Origin: Tetrahymena thermophila SB210 | Lineage: Eukaryota > Ciliophora > Oligohymenophorea > Hymenostomatida > Tetrahymenidae | Length of the DNA: 64,000 nt | Direction: 5' to 3' | NCBI RefSeq assembly: GCF_000189635.1 | Contig: NW_002476391.1 | Coordinates: 1 to 64,000 of the forward strand | Shown: in pieces, positions 41,974 through 55,745 of the stretch | How the letters are laid out: every line of letters begins with the position of its first letter | Position numbering within the stretch: position 1 is the stretch's first letter | The notes under the pieces: generated by a model | Told to the model about the DNA's origin: nothing | The model's database searches: none | Seen by the model: the letters and a program-made list of their open reading frames with translations, nothing else | Program-made: the position numbers and the translations under genes

Positions 41974-44130
41974 ATGACTAGCAGTGTTTCTACAAATAGC
42001 TTTCAAAACATTAAAGAAGTTATCAAGGTTGTAAATAATCTTAGAGATTTTGGAGTAGAATCTGATAAAATTGAGCTTCCTAAAATAGTAGTTATTGGTG
42101 TTTAATCTTCTGGTAAGTCTTCACTTCTAGAGTAAATTGTCTAGATAGACTTTTTACCTAGAGGTACTGGAGTAGTGACTCGTTGTCCTTTAGAAATAAG
42201 ACTCATTGAAGTAACCAGCTATGCTAAAGATTTTAAGCCCTACGCTTACTTTTTTGAAGAAAGAAGCAAAACATATGAAAATTTTGAAGAAGTAAAAAAA
42301 AGAATTGAAACAATTACAAAGGAGCAAGCTGGAGTAGGTAAAAAGATTGTTGATCAAGCAATAACTTTGACTATCTTCTAGACTAAATGCCCTACTTTGA
42401 CTTTAATTGATTTACCAGGTATGACTTTGAATTCTATCGAAGACTAGGTCGATGTAGAAAAAGTTACTCAAGACATGACTTTAAAATACATCAAAGAAGA
42501 AACCACAATTATCCTTTGTGTTATTCCTATCAACTAGGATTTAGAAAACTCTCTTGCTTTGAAGCTTGCTAGAAATGTTGACAAAGATGGTAATCGTACT
42601 ATCGGAGTACTTACTATGATAGATATAATGAATCCAGGCACAAATTGTGAGAAAGTGTTAAGAAATTAGTAAATTCCACTTAAGCATAGATATTATGGTA
42701 TGAAACCTCGTAATTAAAATGATATAAATAACAATATCTCAGTTGAATAAGCTATACAAAATGAATAAGAATATTTTTCAAACCATGAAGTTTACAAAGA
42801 GTTTGCTGATTATACTGGTACAGCTGCCCTAACTCATAAACTTTCTACATTTCTGGATAGCCACATTCGTCACTTTTTGCCAGATATTTTTAAAAAGATC
42901 TATTCTACTCTTCTTTAAAGAATAGAGCAAAGAAAAAAATTAGGCAATCCTTTCCCTACTGATATCAACAAATAGTAAAAAGAGCTGAGAGATATAATTA
43001 ACAAATCTTTAAATATTTTCAAGCAAGCTATATAAGACTTTGATTTAACTGAAGTTGAAAATATTGAAAAAATCTAAGTTGGAGAAAGAATGGGTAGAAA
43101 TTATGTTGACTATTTAATGGATCATTATTCAGAATAAAATAGAGAATTATTCATTCATTCTCTCAAAAATGTTGATATGAAAAAAGTCTAGCACGAACTT
43201 TAGAAGTTTAGAATTCCTGTTAACGGATTTATTCCTTTCTAGGCCATCCAATCTTAAATAAGATAGTATGTAAGTAATTATGAGCACAAAGCCAAGGAGT
43301 TGCTTGAAAGTATAAAGGAATATTTAAAGAAAGTACTATATTTCTGCATTGATTAGTATCCTTATCCTAACCACTTTATCAAGAAAATGATTTAAGATCT
43401 ACTTTCAAAGTATATTACAAAAGAATTTAAATTAACTAAAGCTCATATCGAAACAACATTCAAGTGCTATAAAGAATCCATATATTCAAAAACTATTGAT
43501 GTTCATGGATCTGAAACTAAGATAAAATAATCTTTTGTTATTAATTAATCAGACGCTAATTAGAAAAAATCTCTTTATGAATATATTACTAAAAACAAAA
43601 ATTTCATGAAATGGACTATTTTTGATGTAATGCATAAATCAGAATAGCTGTCTGATAAAACCATTCTAAACTCAGAATATAATGATGCTATATTGAAGAC
43701 TGATGAAAAATACAATACTGACGAAATTATGAGATATTCTATCATATTTTTTTAATATATGGATAACTTTAGAAAATAGATCAGTGATCAAATTCCACAA
43801 TTCATATAGACTTTATTTATCAGCAGTCTATGTAATTCACTCTTCTTAAATGTTGTAAACGATATTTTCAGCAACGAATGCAAAGAAGCTATGGAAAAAA
43901 ATCTTAAAGAAGATGCTAGATTGACTGAAGAAAGAAAGATTGTAGCTTAATCTCTCAAAAAACTTAAAAAAGCTTACATAACACTTAAATCCCTATAAGA
44001 AAAAAGCTTTGATTACTATTCATCAAGCTCTGTAACTTGTGAAAGTGAAGATCTTGTTTTACATTTTGAATGTGAAGACACCTATTATGATGATGAAGAT
44101 GATGAAGATTCTATCACAACTGTGTTTTGA
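41974..44130 (+). CDS. Dynamin-related GTPase, copy 1
   Basis: An uninterrupted exon of 718 aa. The GTPase domain shows G1 GVQSSGKSS (residues 42-50), switch Thr69 in PRGTGVVTRCP, and G3 DLPG (146-149). The G4 position reads LTMIDIMNPGT (Thr214-Met215-Ile216-Asp217) where dynamins have TKxD, so the Lys that stacks on guanine is replaced by Met. The middle domain (HRYYGMKPR, LSTFLDSHIRHFLP) and a C-terminal GED-like helix (MRYSIIFFQYMDNFRKQISD) are present. There is no PH or proline-rich domain. The end is acidic (YYDDEDDEDSITTVF). It belongs to the expanded ciliate dynamin-related proteins, which remodel membranes. Regulated probably by the shared upstream motifs. Confidence 0.88.
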
Positions 44131-46323: not shown

Positions 46324-48480
46324 ATGACAAGCAGTGTTTCTACAAATAGCTTTCAAAACATTAAAGAAGTTATCAAGGTTGTAAATAATCTTAGAGATTT
46401 TGGAGTAGAATCTGATAAAATTGAGCTTCCTAAAATAGTAGTTATTGGTGTTTAATCTTCAGGTAAGTCTTCACTTCTAGAGTAAATTGTCTAGATAGAC
46501 TTTTTACCTAGAGGTACTGGAGTAGTGACTCGTTGTCCTTTAGAAATAAGACTCATTGAAGTAACCAGCTATGCTAAAGATTTTAAGCCCTACGCTTACT
46601 TTTTTGAAGAAAGAAGCAAAACATATGAAAATTTTGAAGAAGTAAAAAAAAGAATTGAAACAATTACAAAGGAGCAAGCTGGAGTAGGTAAAAAGATTGT
46701 TGATCAAGCAATAACTTTGACTATCTTCTAGACTAAATGCCCTACTTTGACTTTAATTGATTTACCAGGTATGACTTTGAATTCTATCGAAGACTAGGTC
46801 GATGTTGAAAAAGTTACTCAAGACATGACTTTAAAATACATCAAAGAAGAAACTACAATTATCCTTTGTGTTATTCCTATCAACTAGGATTTAGAAAACT
46901 CTCTTGCTTTGAAGCTTGCTAGAAATGTTGATAAAACTGGTAGTCGTACTATTGGAGTACTTACTATGATAGATATAATGAATCCAGGCACAAATTGTGA
47001 GAAAGTGTTAAGAAATTAGTAAATTCCACTTAAGCATAGATATTATGGTATGAAACCTCGTAATTAAAATGATATAAATAACAATATCACAGTTGAATAA
47101 GCTATAAAAAATGAATAAGAATATTTTTCAAACCATGAAGTTTACAAAGAGTTTGCTGATTATACTGGCACAGCTGCCTTAACTCATAAACTTTCTACAT
47201 TATTAGATAGTCACATTCGTCACTTTTTGCCAGATATTTTTAAAAAGATCTATTCTACTCTTCTTTAAAGAATAGAGTCAAGAAAAAAATTAGGCGATCC
47301 TTTCCCTACTGATATCAACAAATAGTAAAAAGAGCTGAGAGATATAATTAACAAATCTTTAAATATTTTCAAACAAGCTATGTAAGACTTTGATTTAACT
47401 GAAGTTGAAAATATTGAAAAAATCTAAGTTGGAGAAAGAATGGGTAGAAATTATGTTGACTTTTTAATGGATCATTATTCAGAATAAAATAGAGAATTAT
47501 TCATTCAATCTCTCAAAAATGTTGATATGAAAAAAGTCTAGCACGAACTTTAGAAGTTTAGAATTCCTGTTAACGGATTTATTCCTTTCTAGGCCCTCCA
47601 ATCTTAGATAAGATAGCATGTAAGTCACTATGAGCACAAAGCCAAGGAGTTGCTTGAAAGTATAAAGGAATATTTAAAGAAAGTACTATATTTCTGCATT
47701 GATTAGTATCCTTATCCTAACCACTTTATAAAGAAAATGATTTAAGATCTAGTTTCAAAGTATATTACAAAAGAATTTAAATTAACTAAAGCTCATATCG
47801 AAACAACATTCAAATGCTATAAAGAATCCATATATTCAACAACGATTGATGTTCATGGCTATGAAACTAATTTAAAGTAATCTTTTGTTATTAATTCTTT
47901 GGTCGCTAATTAGAAAAAATCTGTTTATGAATATATTACTAAAAACACAAATTTCATGAAATGGACTATTTTTGATATAATTCATAAATCAGAATAGCTG
48001 TCAGGAAAAACCATTTCAAGCTCAGAATATAATGATGTTGTATTGAAGACTGACGAAAAATACAATACTGACGAAATTATGAGATATTCTATCATATTTT
48101 ATTAATATTTGGAAAACTTTAGAAAATAGATCAGTGATTAAATTCCATAATTCATATAGACTTTATTTATCAACAGTCTATGTAATTCACTCTTCTTAAA
48201 TGTTGTAAACGATATTTTCAGCAATGAATGCAAAGAAGCTATGGAAAAAAATCTTAAAGAAGATGCTAGATTGACTGAAGAAAGAAAGATTGTAGCTTAA
48301 TCTCTCAAAAAGCTTAAAAAAGCTTACATAACACTTAAATCCCTATAAGAAAAAAGCTTTGATTACTATTCATCAAGCTCTGTAACTTGTGAAAGTGAAG
48401 ATCTTGTTTTACATTTTGAATGTGAAGACACCTATTATGATGATGAAGATGATGAAGATTCTATCACAACTGTGTTTTGA
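46324..48480 (+). CDS. Dynamin-related GTPase, copy 2
   Basis: 718 aa, the same length as copy 1 and almost identical to it in the GTPase domain. The differences are scattered, for example DKTGSRT for DKDGNRT near residue 206 and YETNLKQSFVINSLVANQ for SETKIKQSFVINQSDANQ near residue 520. All motifs, including the unusual TMID at the G4 position, and the acidic C-terminus are kept. There is no in-frame TGA, so the copy is intact. The near identity over the first 200 codons, many at DNA level, suggests recent duplication or gene conversion. Confidence 0.88.
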
Positions 48481-50641: not shown

Positions 50642-52795
50642 ATGACTAGCAGTGTTTCTACAAACAGCTTTCAAAATATTAAAGAAGTTATCAAGGTTAT
50701 AAATAATCTTAGAGATTTTGGAGTAGAATCTGATAAGATCGAGCTTCCTAAAATAGTTGTTATAGGTGTTTAATCTTCAGGTAAGTCTTCACTTCTAGAG
50801 TAAATTGTCTAGATAGACTTTTTACCTAGAGGAACTGGAGTAGTGACTCGTTGTCCTTTAGAAATAAGACTCATTGAAGTAAGCAACTATGGTAAAAATT
50901 TTAAGCCCTTCGCTTACTTTTTTGAAGAAAGAAACATAACATATGATGATTTTGAAGAAGTAAAATAAAGAATTGAAATAATTACAAAGGAGCTAGCTGG
51001 AGAAGGTAAAAAGATTGTTGATGAAACAATAACTTTGACTATCTTCTAGACTAATTGCCCTACTTTGACTTTAATTGATTTACCAGGTATGACTTTGAAT
51101 TCTATCGAAGACTAGGAAGATGTAGAAATAGTTACTCAAGAAATGACTTTAAAATACATCTAAGAAGAAACCACAATTATCCTTTGTGTAATTCCTATCA
51201 ACTCAGATTTAGAAAACTCTCTTGCTTTGAAGCTTTCTAGAAATGTTGATAAAGTTGGTAGTCGTACTATTGGAGTACTTACTATGATAGATATAATGAA
51301 TCCAGGTACAAATTGTGAGAAAGTGTTAAGAAATTAGTAAATTCCACTTAAGCATAGATATTACGGTATGAAACCTCGTAATTAAAAAGATATAAATAAT
51401 AATGTCACTGTTGAATTAGCCATACAAAATGAGTATGAATATTTCTCAAACCATGAAATTTACAAAGAATTTGCTGATTATACTGGTACAGCTGCCTTGA
51501 CTCATAAACTTTCTACATTATTGGATAGCCACATTCGTCACTTTTTGCCAGATATTTTTAAAAAGATCTATTCTACTCTTCTTTAAAGAATAGAGTCAAG
51601 AAAAAAATTAGGCAATCCTTTCCCTACCGATATCAACAAATAATAAAAAGAGTTAAGAGACATAATTAACAAATCTTTAAATGTTTTCAAGCAAATTATA
51701 TAAGACTTTGATCTAGTTGAAGTTGAAAATATTGAAAAAATTTAAATTGAAGACAAAATGGGTAGAAATTATGTTGATTATTTAATGGATAATTATTCAG
51801 AATAAAATAGAGAACTATTCATTCAATCTCTCAAAAACGTTGAAATGAAAAAAGTCTAGCACGAACTTTAGAAGTTTAGAATTCCTGTTAACGGATTTAT
51901 TCCTTTCTAAGCCTTATAATCTTAGATTAGATAGTACATAAGCAACTATGAGCACAAAGCCAAGGAGTTACTTGAAAATATAAAGGAATATTTAAAGAAA
52001 GTACTATATTTCTGCATTGATTAGTATCCTTATCCTAATCACTTTATCAAGAAAATGATTTAAGATCTACTTTCAAAGTATATTACAAAAGAATTTAAAT
52101 TTACTAAAGCTCATATCGAAACAACATTCAAGTGCTATAAAGAATCCATATATTCAAAAACGATTGATGTTCATGGCTCTGAAACTAAGATAAAGTAATC
52201 TTTTGTCACTAATTCTTTAGACACCAATTAAAAAATGTCTGTTTATGAACATATTACTAAAAACACAAATTTCATGAAATTGACTATTTTTGATGTAATG
52301 TATAAATCAGAATAGCTGTAAGGAAAAACAATTTAACACAAAGAATATAATGATGTTGTATTGAAGACAGATGAAAAATATAATACTGACGAAATTATGA
52401 GATATTCTATCATATTTTATCAATATATGGATAACTTTAGAAAATAGATCAGTGATCAAATTCCATAATTCATATAGACTTTATTTATCAACAGTCTATG
52501 TGATTCACTCTTTTTAAATGTTGTAAACTCTATTTTTAGCAATGAATGCAAAGAAGCTATGGAAAAAAATCTTAAAGAAGATGCTAGATTAACTGAAGAA
52601 AGAAAAATGGTCACTTAATCTCTCAAATAACTTAAAAAAGCTTACTCAACACTTAAATCCCTATAGGAAAAAAGCTTTGATTATTATTCATCAAGCTCTG
52701 TAACTTGTGAAAGCGAAGATCTTGCTTTACATTTTGAATGTGAAGATGCATATTATGATGATGAAGATGAAAATGATTCTATAGATGTGTTTTGA
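50642..52795 (+). CDS. Dynamin-related GTPase, copy 3
   Basis: 717 aa, one codon shorter at the acidic tail (DENDSIDVF). It shares G1 GVQSSGKSS, switch Thr, DLPG and the LTMID variant with copies 1 and 2 but has more substitutions, for example NYGKNFKPFAYFFEERNI and KELAGEGKKIVDETI in the GTPase domain. The frame is intact. It is the oldest of the three tandem copies. Its promoter has fewer of the shared motifs, so expression may differ from copies 1 and 2 (inference). Confidence 0.86.
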
Positions 52796-53559
52796 TTAAA
52801 ACATTTAATAATTTTGAATATTTGTTTTATTTTTGCTAATATAAAATTAATTTTAATATTCATATTAAATATTTTAAGATGTTTTGTTTTAAATATTTCA
52901 TAATTTTTTTAATAAGCCTAAATATTTTTTTACAAATTGTTTTATTTATTAGAAGTATTTTATTCACAATAACAAACTATTCTAGCTGAGAAATAAATTG
53001 ATTCATTTATCAAACATAGAGTAACTAATTATGAATAAATTTATTATGATGTTAGTTTTTGTGGTTACTAATATCTTCCAATAGTCTACTACCTACCTAA
53101 CCTACCTTAAAATGTTAATAATTTAATTGTAATAACTATTTAAATATTTAGAATTGAAGAGCTAATAAAAATTTTAGTCCAAAATTTACAATATTATAAA
53201 TCAAGTAGATGGTTTAATAAAAAAAACTATTTTTAATCAAGTATTTTTTATTTAATCACTTTTTTACTGATTGTTATTAAATTTCACTTGAGTGAATATT
53301 CACAGTAAACTGATTTTCATATTTATTTTATTAATATTAATAATTTAAAGAGAATATCTATTTCATTAATATTCTTCACTAAATAAATCCTTCGATTGTC
53401 ACAATTGTTCCATATTTTCTAATTAATGATGATTATAAAAAAAAAGAAGAATTAAACTTTAATCTTTTTTTTTTTATTAATTGTGTTTTACACTTTTAAT
53501 AATAATCAATTCAACAAAATTAAAAGAAATACATTCACAAATAATAACAAAAAATAAAA
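52796..53559. other. Intergenic, 0.76 kb
   Basis: The first 350 bases are the array's repeated 3' flank (CCTACCTTAAAATG near 53099). The rest is AT-rich and ends in the A-rich leader of the next gene. Confidence 0.6.
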
Positions 53560-53916
53560 ATGGGTTGATGCTTTAGCTGCCAGAACAACAACAACAATTG
53601 TAATTCTTATCAATAAGTTAATTCAAATAGAAACAAGGTTTTTATGGTTGAAATAGAATATTGGTAAGAAGGAGGATATGAAGTTGATGCTTCTTAAAAA
53701 ATAAACAATATTAAATAAATGTATCCATTTATCCACTATTAATTTACTCCAGTTTCTAACGAAAAAGCTTTCAACATCTACTTGAGTGACATTAATAATT
53801 CCCAAAAAAGGTTTTTGTTTTATTCTCGTTAGGAGCATAAATTGTGGGATGGAAGCCAAACTACTAATTCACAGTATCTAAACTACTTAAAACAGTTTGT
53901 AGATGCTAACTTTTGA
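53560..53916 (+). CDS. Candidate selenoprotein: TGA at codon 3, then a SelW/Rdx-like domain
   Basis: The frame from the ATG at 53560 reads Met-Gly-TGA-Cys-Phe-Ser-Cys-Gln, then an Asn-rich stretch, then about 90 residues to the TGA stop at 53914-53916 (118 residues if codon 3 is selenocysteine). The A-rich leader supports this ATG. The domain starts KVFMVEIEYWQEGGYEVDA and goes on with KQMYPFIHYQFTPVSNEKAF, FYSRQEHKLWDG and YLNYLKQFV. In spacing and hydrophobic pattern this resembles the thioredoxin-like Rdx fold of SelW (VxVxYCxxUGY... FP... P...F.V... HSK... FLK.V). The CxxU site is replaced by WQEG. A SECIS-like hairpin lies downstream. Alternatives: translation starts at the ATG at 53644 (90 aa), or TGA is a mutated or misread Cys codon, which would give an MGCC acylation motif. 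TGA is the normal stop in every other gene here. Confidence 0.6.
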
Positions 53917-55745
53917 ATATTTTATAAATCAATTTATTATTCCATTTAAAAATGAAGATAAAAACTAAAAAGACTCACATGAAGGAGAGTATCTAAAAAC
54001 AAGTATGATACAATCCTGAAAAAATCCAAAAAAGTCTCTTTTTTTTTCTTTCTTCAACATAATAAATGAATAAAATTATAAATAAAATAAAAAACTGTAA
54101 TTTTGTAATTGATAGTCAAATATATATTTCACAAGTATTAATTATAATCTCTTCAGTTGTTAAAAATATTTAGTCTTTATAAATGTTAGAGTTAAATATC
54201 AAATAAATGTATCATAAAATAGATTAAAATATCATTAATGATGGACATTTTACTTTTTATTTTATTTATAGTATATTAATTAGTATCTTTAATTCTTCAA
54301 AAAAAAAACTTCAATTTAATATTGATACAATATTAATTTTTTTTATGATAAGTCGCCTAAAACTAAAATATTCTTCTTTACTTATATATCTTAATATTTA
54401 TTATGATCAAAGTTTTTATAGAGTCATCAAAATTGCCAGCTTATTAAATTTTAACTGCAATTTTTTTAGAATTTTACACTTTGGTTTTTTAATTAATAAA
54501 AAACAAACAAACAAATTTTTGCAAATTTTTTGACCAAACTAAATTCAATTAAAGTAAGGAAAATTCGAATAAATAAATAAATTTGCTTAATATTTCATTA
54601 TTTTCTTAATGCTTATTTTTTCTTTCACTCTTCTTTATTTAATTAAAGCTAAATATTTTTAAAAAAATCAATTATATTTTGCAAGTAGAATATTTTTTTA
54701 ATAGATACAAATTTTATTTTTTAGTGGTTTAATAATAGTAACTTCAAAATAATGATAGCCTTTTATGGGCATAGGCTTAAATTTATCATAAATATGAAAT
54801 GAAATATTATGATTTCTTTATTTTATTTAAAATTTTCTATTAAAAAATTATGGTACATAAAAAATTTATTATTACTTTTAAAACTAAAATATCTTTATTG
54901 AAAGGTTTGTTTTATTTTAGGTTAATTGTAGTTATAAAGAGTATATTTTTATAAAATACATGGTAATTGTATGAATAGTACATTAGGAGAAACTTGACCA
55001 TTCCTTATAAATTTGGGTACTGCACACTCTATTCGTACAATACAGTAGAAACTTCAGATTTATTATAGAGAACAAAATGCAATATCTTGTGTATCCTATT
55101 AATTTTGCAAGAAATTTTTTAAAAGTTAAAATTGAGAGAGCTTAAATCTCTAATTTTCACAAAAAAAGAGATTAGAGTAATTATTTTTTTTATCATTTGA
55201 AAGTTTTATAAATGAATGAATCATAGAGTTGTGAGTAAGCTAGAACAGCTTTTAATTAATTTTTTGTATTGAAATCTTCAAAATGAGTTAGATAAATATA
55301 AAGCAAAGGATAAGTAAAAATAAAAAAGCAAAAATAAAAATTGAAATTAATTTAATTAATAATTGTGTGGTTTTATATAAAATAATGAGAAGGAAGATGA
55401 TAATAGCTAATTATTATAAATTATTTTTCCTTTGAATTTTTATTATTCTCTAACTTTTATAGCAGATATATTTGGTATCTTTTAAGCTAAAGAAACTCTA
55501 GTTATATCTTTTTTTTACTTTTTATCTTACAAATTATCGTTTTAAATACTAATGTTTTCAAAATTAGCTTGATAATAAATTCTGTAATTTAATCAAGAAA
55601 TTTGAGTGGTTTGAAATAATTCTCAAAAAAAAAAAAAAGAGAAGAGAATTTTTTAAATTTGAAGGTAAGTTCAAAAATTAATCAATCAATCAATCAAAAT
55701 TATAAAATTAAGAAATTGACAAACAATTAAAATTGATTAATAATT
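53917..55745. other. Intergenic, 1.8 kb
   Basis: Contains the SECIS-like element, AT-rich DNA, and near 54970-55070 a short segment of higher GC content with ACAGTAGAAACTTC, which looks like an end of a Tc1/pogo-type element (see findings). The right end is the promoter of the kinase gene, with a CAATCAAT run near 55681. No further gene seen. Confidence 0.5.
53971..54037 (+). promoter_or_regulatory. SECIS-like element in the 3' UTR
   Basis: It starts 54 nt after the stop codon. ATGA (53979-53982) faces GA (54018-54019), giving the tandem G-A quartet. Above it AGGA pairs with TCCT, then a GA/AA mismatch, then GTATC pairs with GATAC. The apical loop (53994-54006) starts T-AAAAA, so the first loop A is separated from ATGA by 12 nt, as expected for eukaryotic SECIS elements. 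Below the quartet AGACT (53971-53975) pairs with AGTCT (54033-54037) across an internal loop. All features were found by eye; folding energy was not computed. Confidence 0.55.

Follow-up and report, generated by a model that had tools for sequence, protein, structure and literature searches.

Can a UGA codon located only two codons downstream of a start codon be read as selenocysteine (Sec) in Tetrahymena thermophila, where UGA is reported to be the only stop codon (PMC2612030)? The question arises from a gene present on the + strand of the window, which is the whole stretch of 64,000 nucleotides analyzed here. The ATG at 53560-53562 opens a frame of 118 codons in the ciliate code (table 6), ending with a TGA stop at 53914-53916. 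The occurrence in this frame of a TGA at codon 3, directly ahead of a Cys codon, was pointed out in the earlier note and was borne out by the analysis: the TGA at 53566-53568 is followed by TGC TTT AGC TGC, and the frame then remains open as far as the stop. The gene comprises:

53560..53916, + strand: coding sequence of 118 codons and a TGA stop, translated by table 6 with Sec for codon 3
53566..53568, + strand: in-frame TGA, codon 3, proposed selenocysteine, the sole in-frame TGA ahead of the stop
53560..53643, + strand: N-terminal tail MGUCFSCQNNNNNCNSYQQVNSNRNKVF, of which residues 18-28 align with selenoprotein W2 (SelW2, see below) and residues 1-17 have no counterpart
53644..53913, + strand: putative SelW/Rdx-like domain (SelW similarity, models), with WQEG at residues 35-38 in place of CxxU

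The predicted protein (118 aa) continues from this tail into MVEIEYW.... The nearest upstream TGA in frame lies at 53311, there is no in-frame ATG between 53311 and 53560, and the GC content in 60-nt windows increases from 0.13 at 53500 to 0.33 at 53560. The scores of codons 4-28 are coding-like, being equaled by 1.2% of the noncoding windows; since the +1 frame scores as more coding (7.15 versus 4.08 for the proposed frame), they are consistent with coding but leave the choice of frame undecided. Codons 4-14 include three Cys codons, which was matched by none of the 6308 noncoding 11-codon windows. The UGA overlaps an out-of-frame ATG (TGATG, window positions 53566-53570), and this stop-start overlap could matter if Sec insertion fails. 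Elsewhere on the + strand of the window, ORFs of 718, 718, and 717 codons are present at 41974-44130, 46324-48480, and 50642-52795, the first and third of which belong to the dynamin family according to Pfam.

The genome carries Sec machinery. A tRNA-Sec gene was found at C396:319831-319916 (68.6 bits, Rfam), the only one above the cut-off among the 10 places listed, and eEFSec, selenophosphate synthetase, and an SBP2-like protein are reported for T. thermophila in PMC7409322. This tRNA-Sec gene (L031) was left uncalled by ARAGORN in its bacterial setting. A survey from 2008 counts six selenoproteins, namely two GPx, three TrxR, and SPS2, and mentions that others may exist (PMC2612030), and a 2020 paper gives five (PMC7409322). 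Among the matches listed in searches on ciliate selenoproteins, SECIS, SelW, SelT, and N-terminal Sec, no title dealt with the window gene, and the strings MGUCFSC and GUCFSC were absent from the literature searched, most subscription journals lying outside it.

Downstream of the stop, in the putative 3' UTR, there is a type I SECIS-like hairpin, the core of which starts 62 nt past the TGA; a distance of about 60 nt had been noted previously.

53979..54019, + strand: SECIS core composed of ATGA, a 12-nt arm, an 11-nt A-rich loop, a 12-nt arm, and GA (stem rule, covariance models, shuffles)
53971..54037, + strand: whole hairpin with the lower stem AGACT/AGTCT (folding)

In this core, ATGA (53979-53982) faces GA (54018-54019), the arms extend over 53983-53994 and 54006-54017 with 9 of the 12 positions paired, and the loop (53995-54005) opens with AAAAA exactly 12 nt after ATGA; below it, AGACT (53971-53975) pairs with AGTCT (54033-54037). 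All the elements described in the earlier note (ATGA opposite GA, a stem of 9 base pairs, an A-rich loop 12 nt after ATGA, and the lower stem) were thus recovered, and the likeness to the eukaryotic SECIS plan also stood, in the form of a type I element with an ATGA/GA core and, some 12 nt beyond it, A's in the loop. This architecture, with 12-nt arms and A's about 12 nt after ATGA, is common to most of the T. thermophila SECIS examined. Taken alone, the folding energy of the hairpin is weak (z -1.17 over 82 nt; z -2.36 over 71 nt, with 4 of 200 shuffles as good). The Rfam model SECIS_1 did not report the candidate hairpin, yet it reported only three of the eight reference SECIS, all of them below the gathering score, and was rejected as a detector since it is too insensitive in this case.

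These eight references are the six published SECIS plus those of SelT (L002) and SelW1 (L005), two genes found here with Pfam Rdx. Both genes are outside the six of the 2008 survey: SelT occupies L002:1501-2060 on the + strand, with CIGU and a SECIS whose ATGA is at 2009, and SelW1 occupies L005:1474-1884 on the + strand, with CGGU and a SECIS whose ATGA is at 1841. A stem rule (ATGA, 12-nt arm, A's, loop, 12-nt arm, GA) gives the candidate a score of 22 and six of the eight references scores of 20-22, while TR486500 obtains 14 and SPS2 is missed. The candidate is the best of the 227 rule matches in 368 kb of strand, the next best scoring 17; when the set was widened to 468 kb of strand, a score of 21 was obtained at a single further place, in L009. 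When the 300-nt 3' flank was shuffled with its dinucleotides preserved, a score of 22 was never reached in 20,000 trials and a score of 18 was reached in 29. The hairpin exceeds chance by both the stem rule and the flank shuffles.

Since the stem rule was drafted after sight of the references and the candidate, covariance models were also built. The first, R1, is based on five reference SECIS with shortened loops, without SelW1 and without the candidate; it gives the candidate 21.4 bits, while three held-out references obtain 24.4, 23.9, and 23.0, and the candidate is its top match in 184 kb. With R2, which is R1 plus the SelW1 SECIS, the candidate obtains 24.5 bits and exceeds two held-out references (23.9 and 21.1), the best background value being 22.9. 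Covariation over seven elements, the candidate included, amounts to 30 double-change cells versus 10.8 in shuffles. In comparison with the SelW1 SECIS, arm positions 7 and 9 have changed on both sides with pairing kept, and positions 5 and 6 have changed on both sides and are unpaired in the candidate. The L009 hairpin obtains 22.2 bits with R1, which is above the candidate's 21.4. It is located at L009:2889-2934 on the + strand, has a GC content of 13%, scores like the real ones but lies within no visible 3' UTR, and is apparently a product of chance. L009 also carries, at 1489-2235 on the - strand, an ORF named by eye as SelT-like, with HCSSH at the expected site of a Sec motif.

The hairpin bears on the possibility that codon 3 is really TGC, TGT, or TGG and that the TGA results from an assembly error or a strain variant. 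Each of these codons differs from TGA by a single base, but a reference-like SECIS would then be left unexplained, and the core strings of all six published T. thermophila SECIS are present exactly in the 101-Mb genome assembly holding the window. An error or variant at this point is considered very improbable.

The domain downstream of the tail was compared with selenoprotein W. In addition to SelW1, a second SelW gene, SelW2, was found at L040:1435-1945 on the + strand. It encodes CGSU and begins with Met-Gly; a single intron, of 52 nt, was inferred in it, and a SECIS-like hairpin lies at 1893. This hairpin, whose arms are uneven, has a z of -2.71 and obtains 17 by the stem rule; it was unlisted by R1 and R2 at the cut-offs used. 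SelW2 is a selenoprotein W absent from the published list. A look-alike stretch, FFYNK, in unspliced SelW2 was dropped because it is intronic.

In a single BLASTP comparison, the window protein matches SelW2 with an E value of 4e-5 (30% identity between Gln18 and Ser81), and the two share the pattern NxN..F.V.IEY....GY; direct comparison with SelW1 gives an E value of 0.003 and 24% identity. A four-sequence HMM built here gives the window protein an E value of 0.017 (set size 10,000) and ranks it above all the 9999 shuffles. The CxxU or CxxC expected after the first strand in the SelW/Rdx family is replaced by WQEG at residues 35-38, and the alignment with SelW2 reads as TGC to TGG and TGA to GGA at this site. 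None of the Pfam and NCBIfam families match the window protein. When the genome was searched with the window protein, only this protein was retrieved at E values up to 10, and a search with SelW1 retrieved SelW1 itself together with SelW2, the window gene being absent; a sequence search of the PDB gave two weak matches, both unrelated, none of the 591 matches of a pattern search for SelW relatives in the genome contigs was confirmed, and no orthologues were detected in the viral contigs. An early match to L007 (IEYWQ) was rejected because it read into an intron, the score falling from 56 to 39 after splicing. At the level of sequence, the window protein is apparently a distant relative of SelW which has lost the CxxU site.

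The similarity to SelW2 starts at Gln18, i.e., upstream of the alternative start at ATG 53644 (Met29). The alignment score is 63 with the full protein (reached by 1 of 5000 shuffles) and 37 from Met29 onward (reached by 341 of 20,000); shuffling residues 2-28 alone never restored 63 in 20,000 trials, and when residues 4-28 were replaced by intergenic translations, 3 of 8172 did so. Because the score falls in this way and few substitutes reach 63, residues 18-28 are probably translated. With this similarity running from codon 18 onward, the UGA appears to lie inside a coding frame, although the stretch ahead of the UGA, two codons, is too short to assess; the match spans Q18-S81 only and leaves out the Sec-bearing part of the tail.

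These data have to be weighed against the reading that the UGA is a true stop, with translation starting at ATG 53644 to give a SelW-like protein of 90 aa and the SECIS being a relic of a SelW ancestor. The CxxU site is indeed gone, a start at Met29 would cost little of the domain since the first predicted strand covers residues 28-35 in the three-sequence model described below, and certain ciliate GPx genes have been suggested to carry relic SECIS (PMC7409322). However, the SelW2 similarity extends upstream of Met29, and the stem is intact despite the low identity (24-30% in the aligned parts) between the protein and its relatives. Moreover, ATG 53644 is preceded by TTT, as is none of the 13 listed ORF starts, whereas ATG 53560 is preceded by AAA, as are seven of them. 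A true stop at codon 3 is accordingly regarded as unlikely. The earlier note had looked to orthologues for a start at 53644 with no conservation upstream; similarity does reach upstream of this ATG, which counts against that outcome, but it is with a paralogue, SelW2.

The UGA might also be removed by splicing.

53564..53617, + strand: possible GT-AG intron of 54 nt, GTTGAT...ATAAG, frame kept, TGA removed, GC 0.333

The protein would then begin MVNSNRNKVFMVEIEYW... without any UGA, and the SECIS would be a leftover. The removal keeps the frame, the spliced form retains most of the SelW2 score (57 versus 63), the length is close to the mode of Tetrahymena introns (56 bp; PMC5014332), and the GTTGAT donor is permissible since GT and AG are the only terminal intron nucleotides reported as conserved in this group (PMC5014332). 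On the other hand, a GC content of 0.333 is reached by only 133 of the 6224 noncoding 54-nt windows, and the introns placed by homology in L007 and L040 have GC contents of 0.108 and 0.135 and both start with GTAA. Introns divisible by three are reported to be under-represented at 45-62 bp (PMC5014332), and splicing would lose the Q18-V20 match and the Met-Gly start and leave the SECIS without a target. An intron at this place seems about as improbable as a stop. Attempts to call introns de novo from the codon scores gave unusable results.

The ATG and the TGA could alternatively both be intronic, if an unseen upstream exon were joined to an acceptor located past the TGA but ahead of codon 18. 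A fair acceptor can be picked out by eye (TTTAG at 53572-53576, for example) and the upstream DNA is AT-rich and intron-like, but the 60-nt windows that start between 52800 and 53490 are mostly negative in coding score and peak at 3.2 bits (53040), and there seems to be little chance that such an exon exists.

The predicted fold was examined using AlphaFold. From the single sequence, the model has a pLDDT of 40.7 and the strand/helix order b-a-b-b-b-a, as in SelW; its Foldseek matches were unrelated proteins, none of the 50 matches listed being a SelW. When rows for SelW1 and SelW2 were added, the best of five models reached a pLDDT of 63.4 (the other four, 52.1-40.4), with block means of 71-82 over residues 31-90. 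Among the first 14 PDB matches of this three-sequence model, five chains are selenoprotein W-related and three are putative Se-binding proteins, judging by their titles; the remaining six, which come from structural genomics and bear no family name, are taken by us to be SelW-like. The TM scores (target) are up to 0.81, two matches have E values of 0.001 or less, and mouse SelW occurs at rank 30 with a TM score (target) of 0.67. As the SelW rows in the input bias the model, it indicates that the window protein is compatible with a SelW-like thioredoxin fold and is not proof of it.

Taken together, the resemblance of the hairpin to T. thermophila reference SECIS and the SelW2 similarity upstream of ATG 53644 support the selenoprotein interpretation put forward in the earlier note. 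We consider it probable that this is a selenoprotein gene in which translation begins at ATG 53560 and codon 3, a UGA, is read by tRNA-Sec, directed, by analogy with known systems, by the type I SECIS past the stop. The product would be a SelW-like thioredoxin-fold domain which has lost its own CxxU center; since this center is now WQEG, codon 3 is the sole in-frame UGA left for the SECIS. The only Sec would sit in the short N-terminal tail Gly-Sec-Cys-Phe-Ser-Cys, where it might form a redox pair with Cys4 or Cys7, which is a guess. N-myristoylation follows the motif MGxxx[ST], and MGUCFS of the window protein, as well as MGANIT, fit it by eye. We speculate that the tail may be N-myristoylated at Gly2, which would place the redox group at the membrane surface, and the fact that SelW2 likewise starts with Met-Gly and has a tail ahead of the domain also suggests acylation. 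A search for other AAAATGGGNTGATGY-type starts gave two places, the window gene and L030; the latter was rejected as a second case, as it has a further TGA at codon 6 and appears to be unrelated.

Whether Sec has been relocated within the family, which would be an uncommon shift for a selenium center, is more doubtful: a SelW duplicate may have lost CxxU by point changes, Sec being placed at codon 3 in an acylated tail, and we put this forward as a tentative possibility. Selenocysteine is normally fixed at the catalytic site of a family. A gene which has lost this site and kept its SECIS for a UGA elsewhere would show that Sec can relocate, in this case to a position used elsewhere for S-acylation or redox pairing. 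Whether the full protein is made or translation stops after Met-Gly would then depend on selenium from the earliest steps of elongation, and codon 3 would be an extreme test of how early the SECIS machinery can act, in a laboratory model organism with UGA as its only stop. In Euplotes SelW constructs, position 85 was more favorable for Sec insertion than position 9 (PMC3737529), which was counted against such an early position.

As regards known systems, the closest are the members of the SelW family (Rdx family, PF10262, TIGR02174), which the window protein resembles in the strand/helix order of the models, the PDB matches, and the similarity to two T. thermophila SelW genes, and from which it differs by having WQEG instead of CxxU, a proposed Sec at residue 3 in a tail, and no Pfam or NCBIfam match. 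With SelW2 (L040) it shares the Met-Gly start, the N-terminal tail, the sequence pattern, and a downstream SECIS-like hairpin, whereas SelW2 still has CGSU, contains neither Sec nor Cys close to its start, and is interrupted by one inferred intron. MIEN1/C17orf37 (Rdx12; PDB 2ljk), which SelW1 matches with an E value of 1e-6, is an Rdx relative, but it has CxxC and no Sec. It is lipid-anchored via a C-terminal prenyl anchor. In Euplotes crassus SelW, Sec occupies the usual site of the domain and not a tail. This protein is nevertheless comparable in being a ciliate SelW with a Sec near its N-terminus, at position 9 (PMC3737529).
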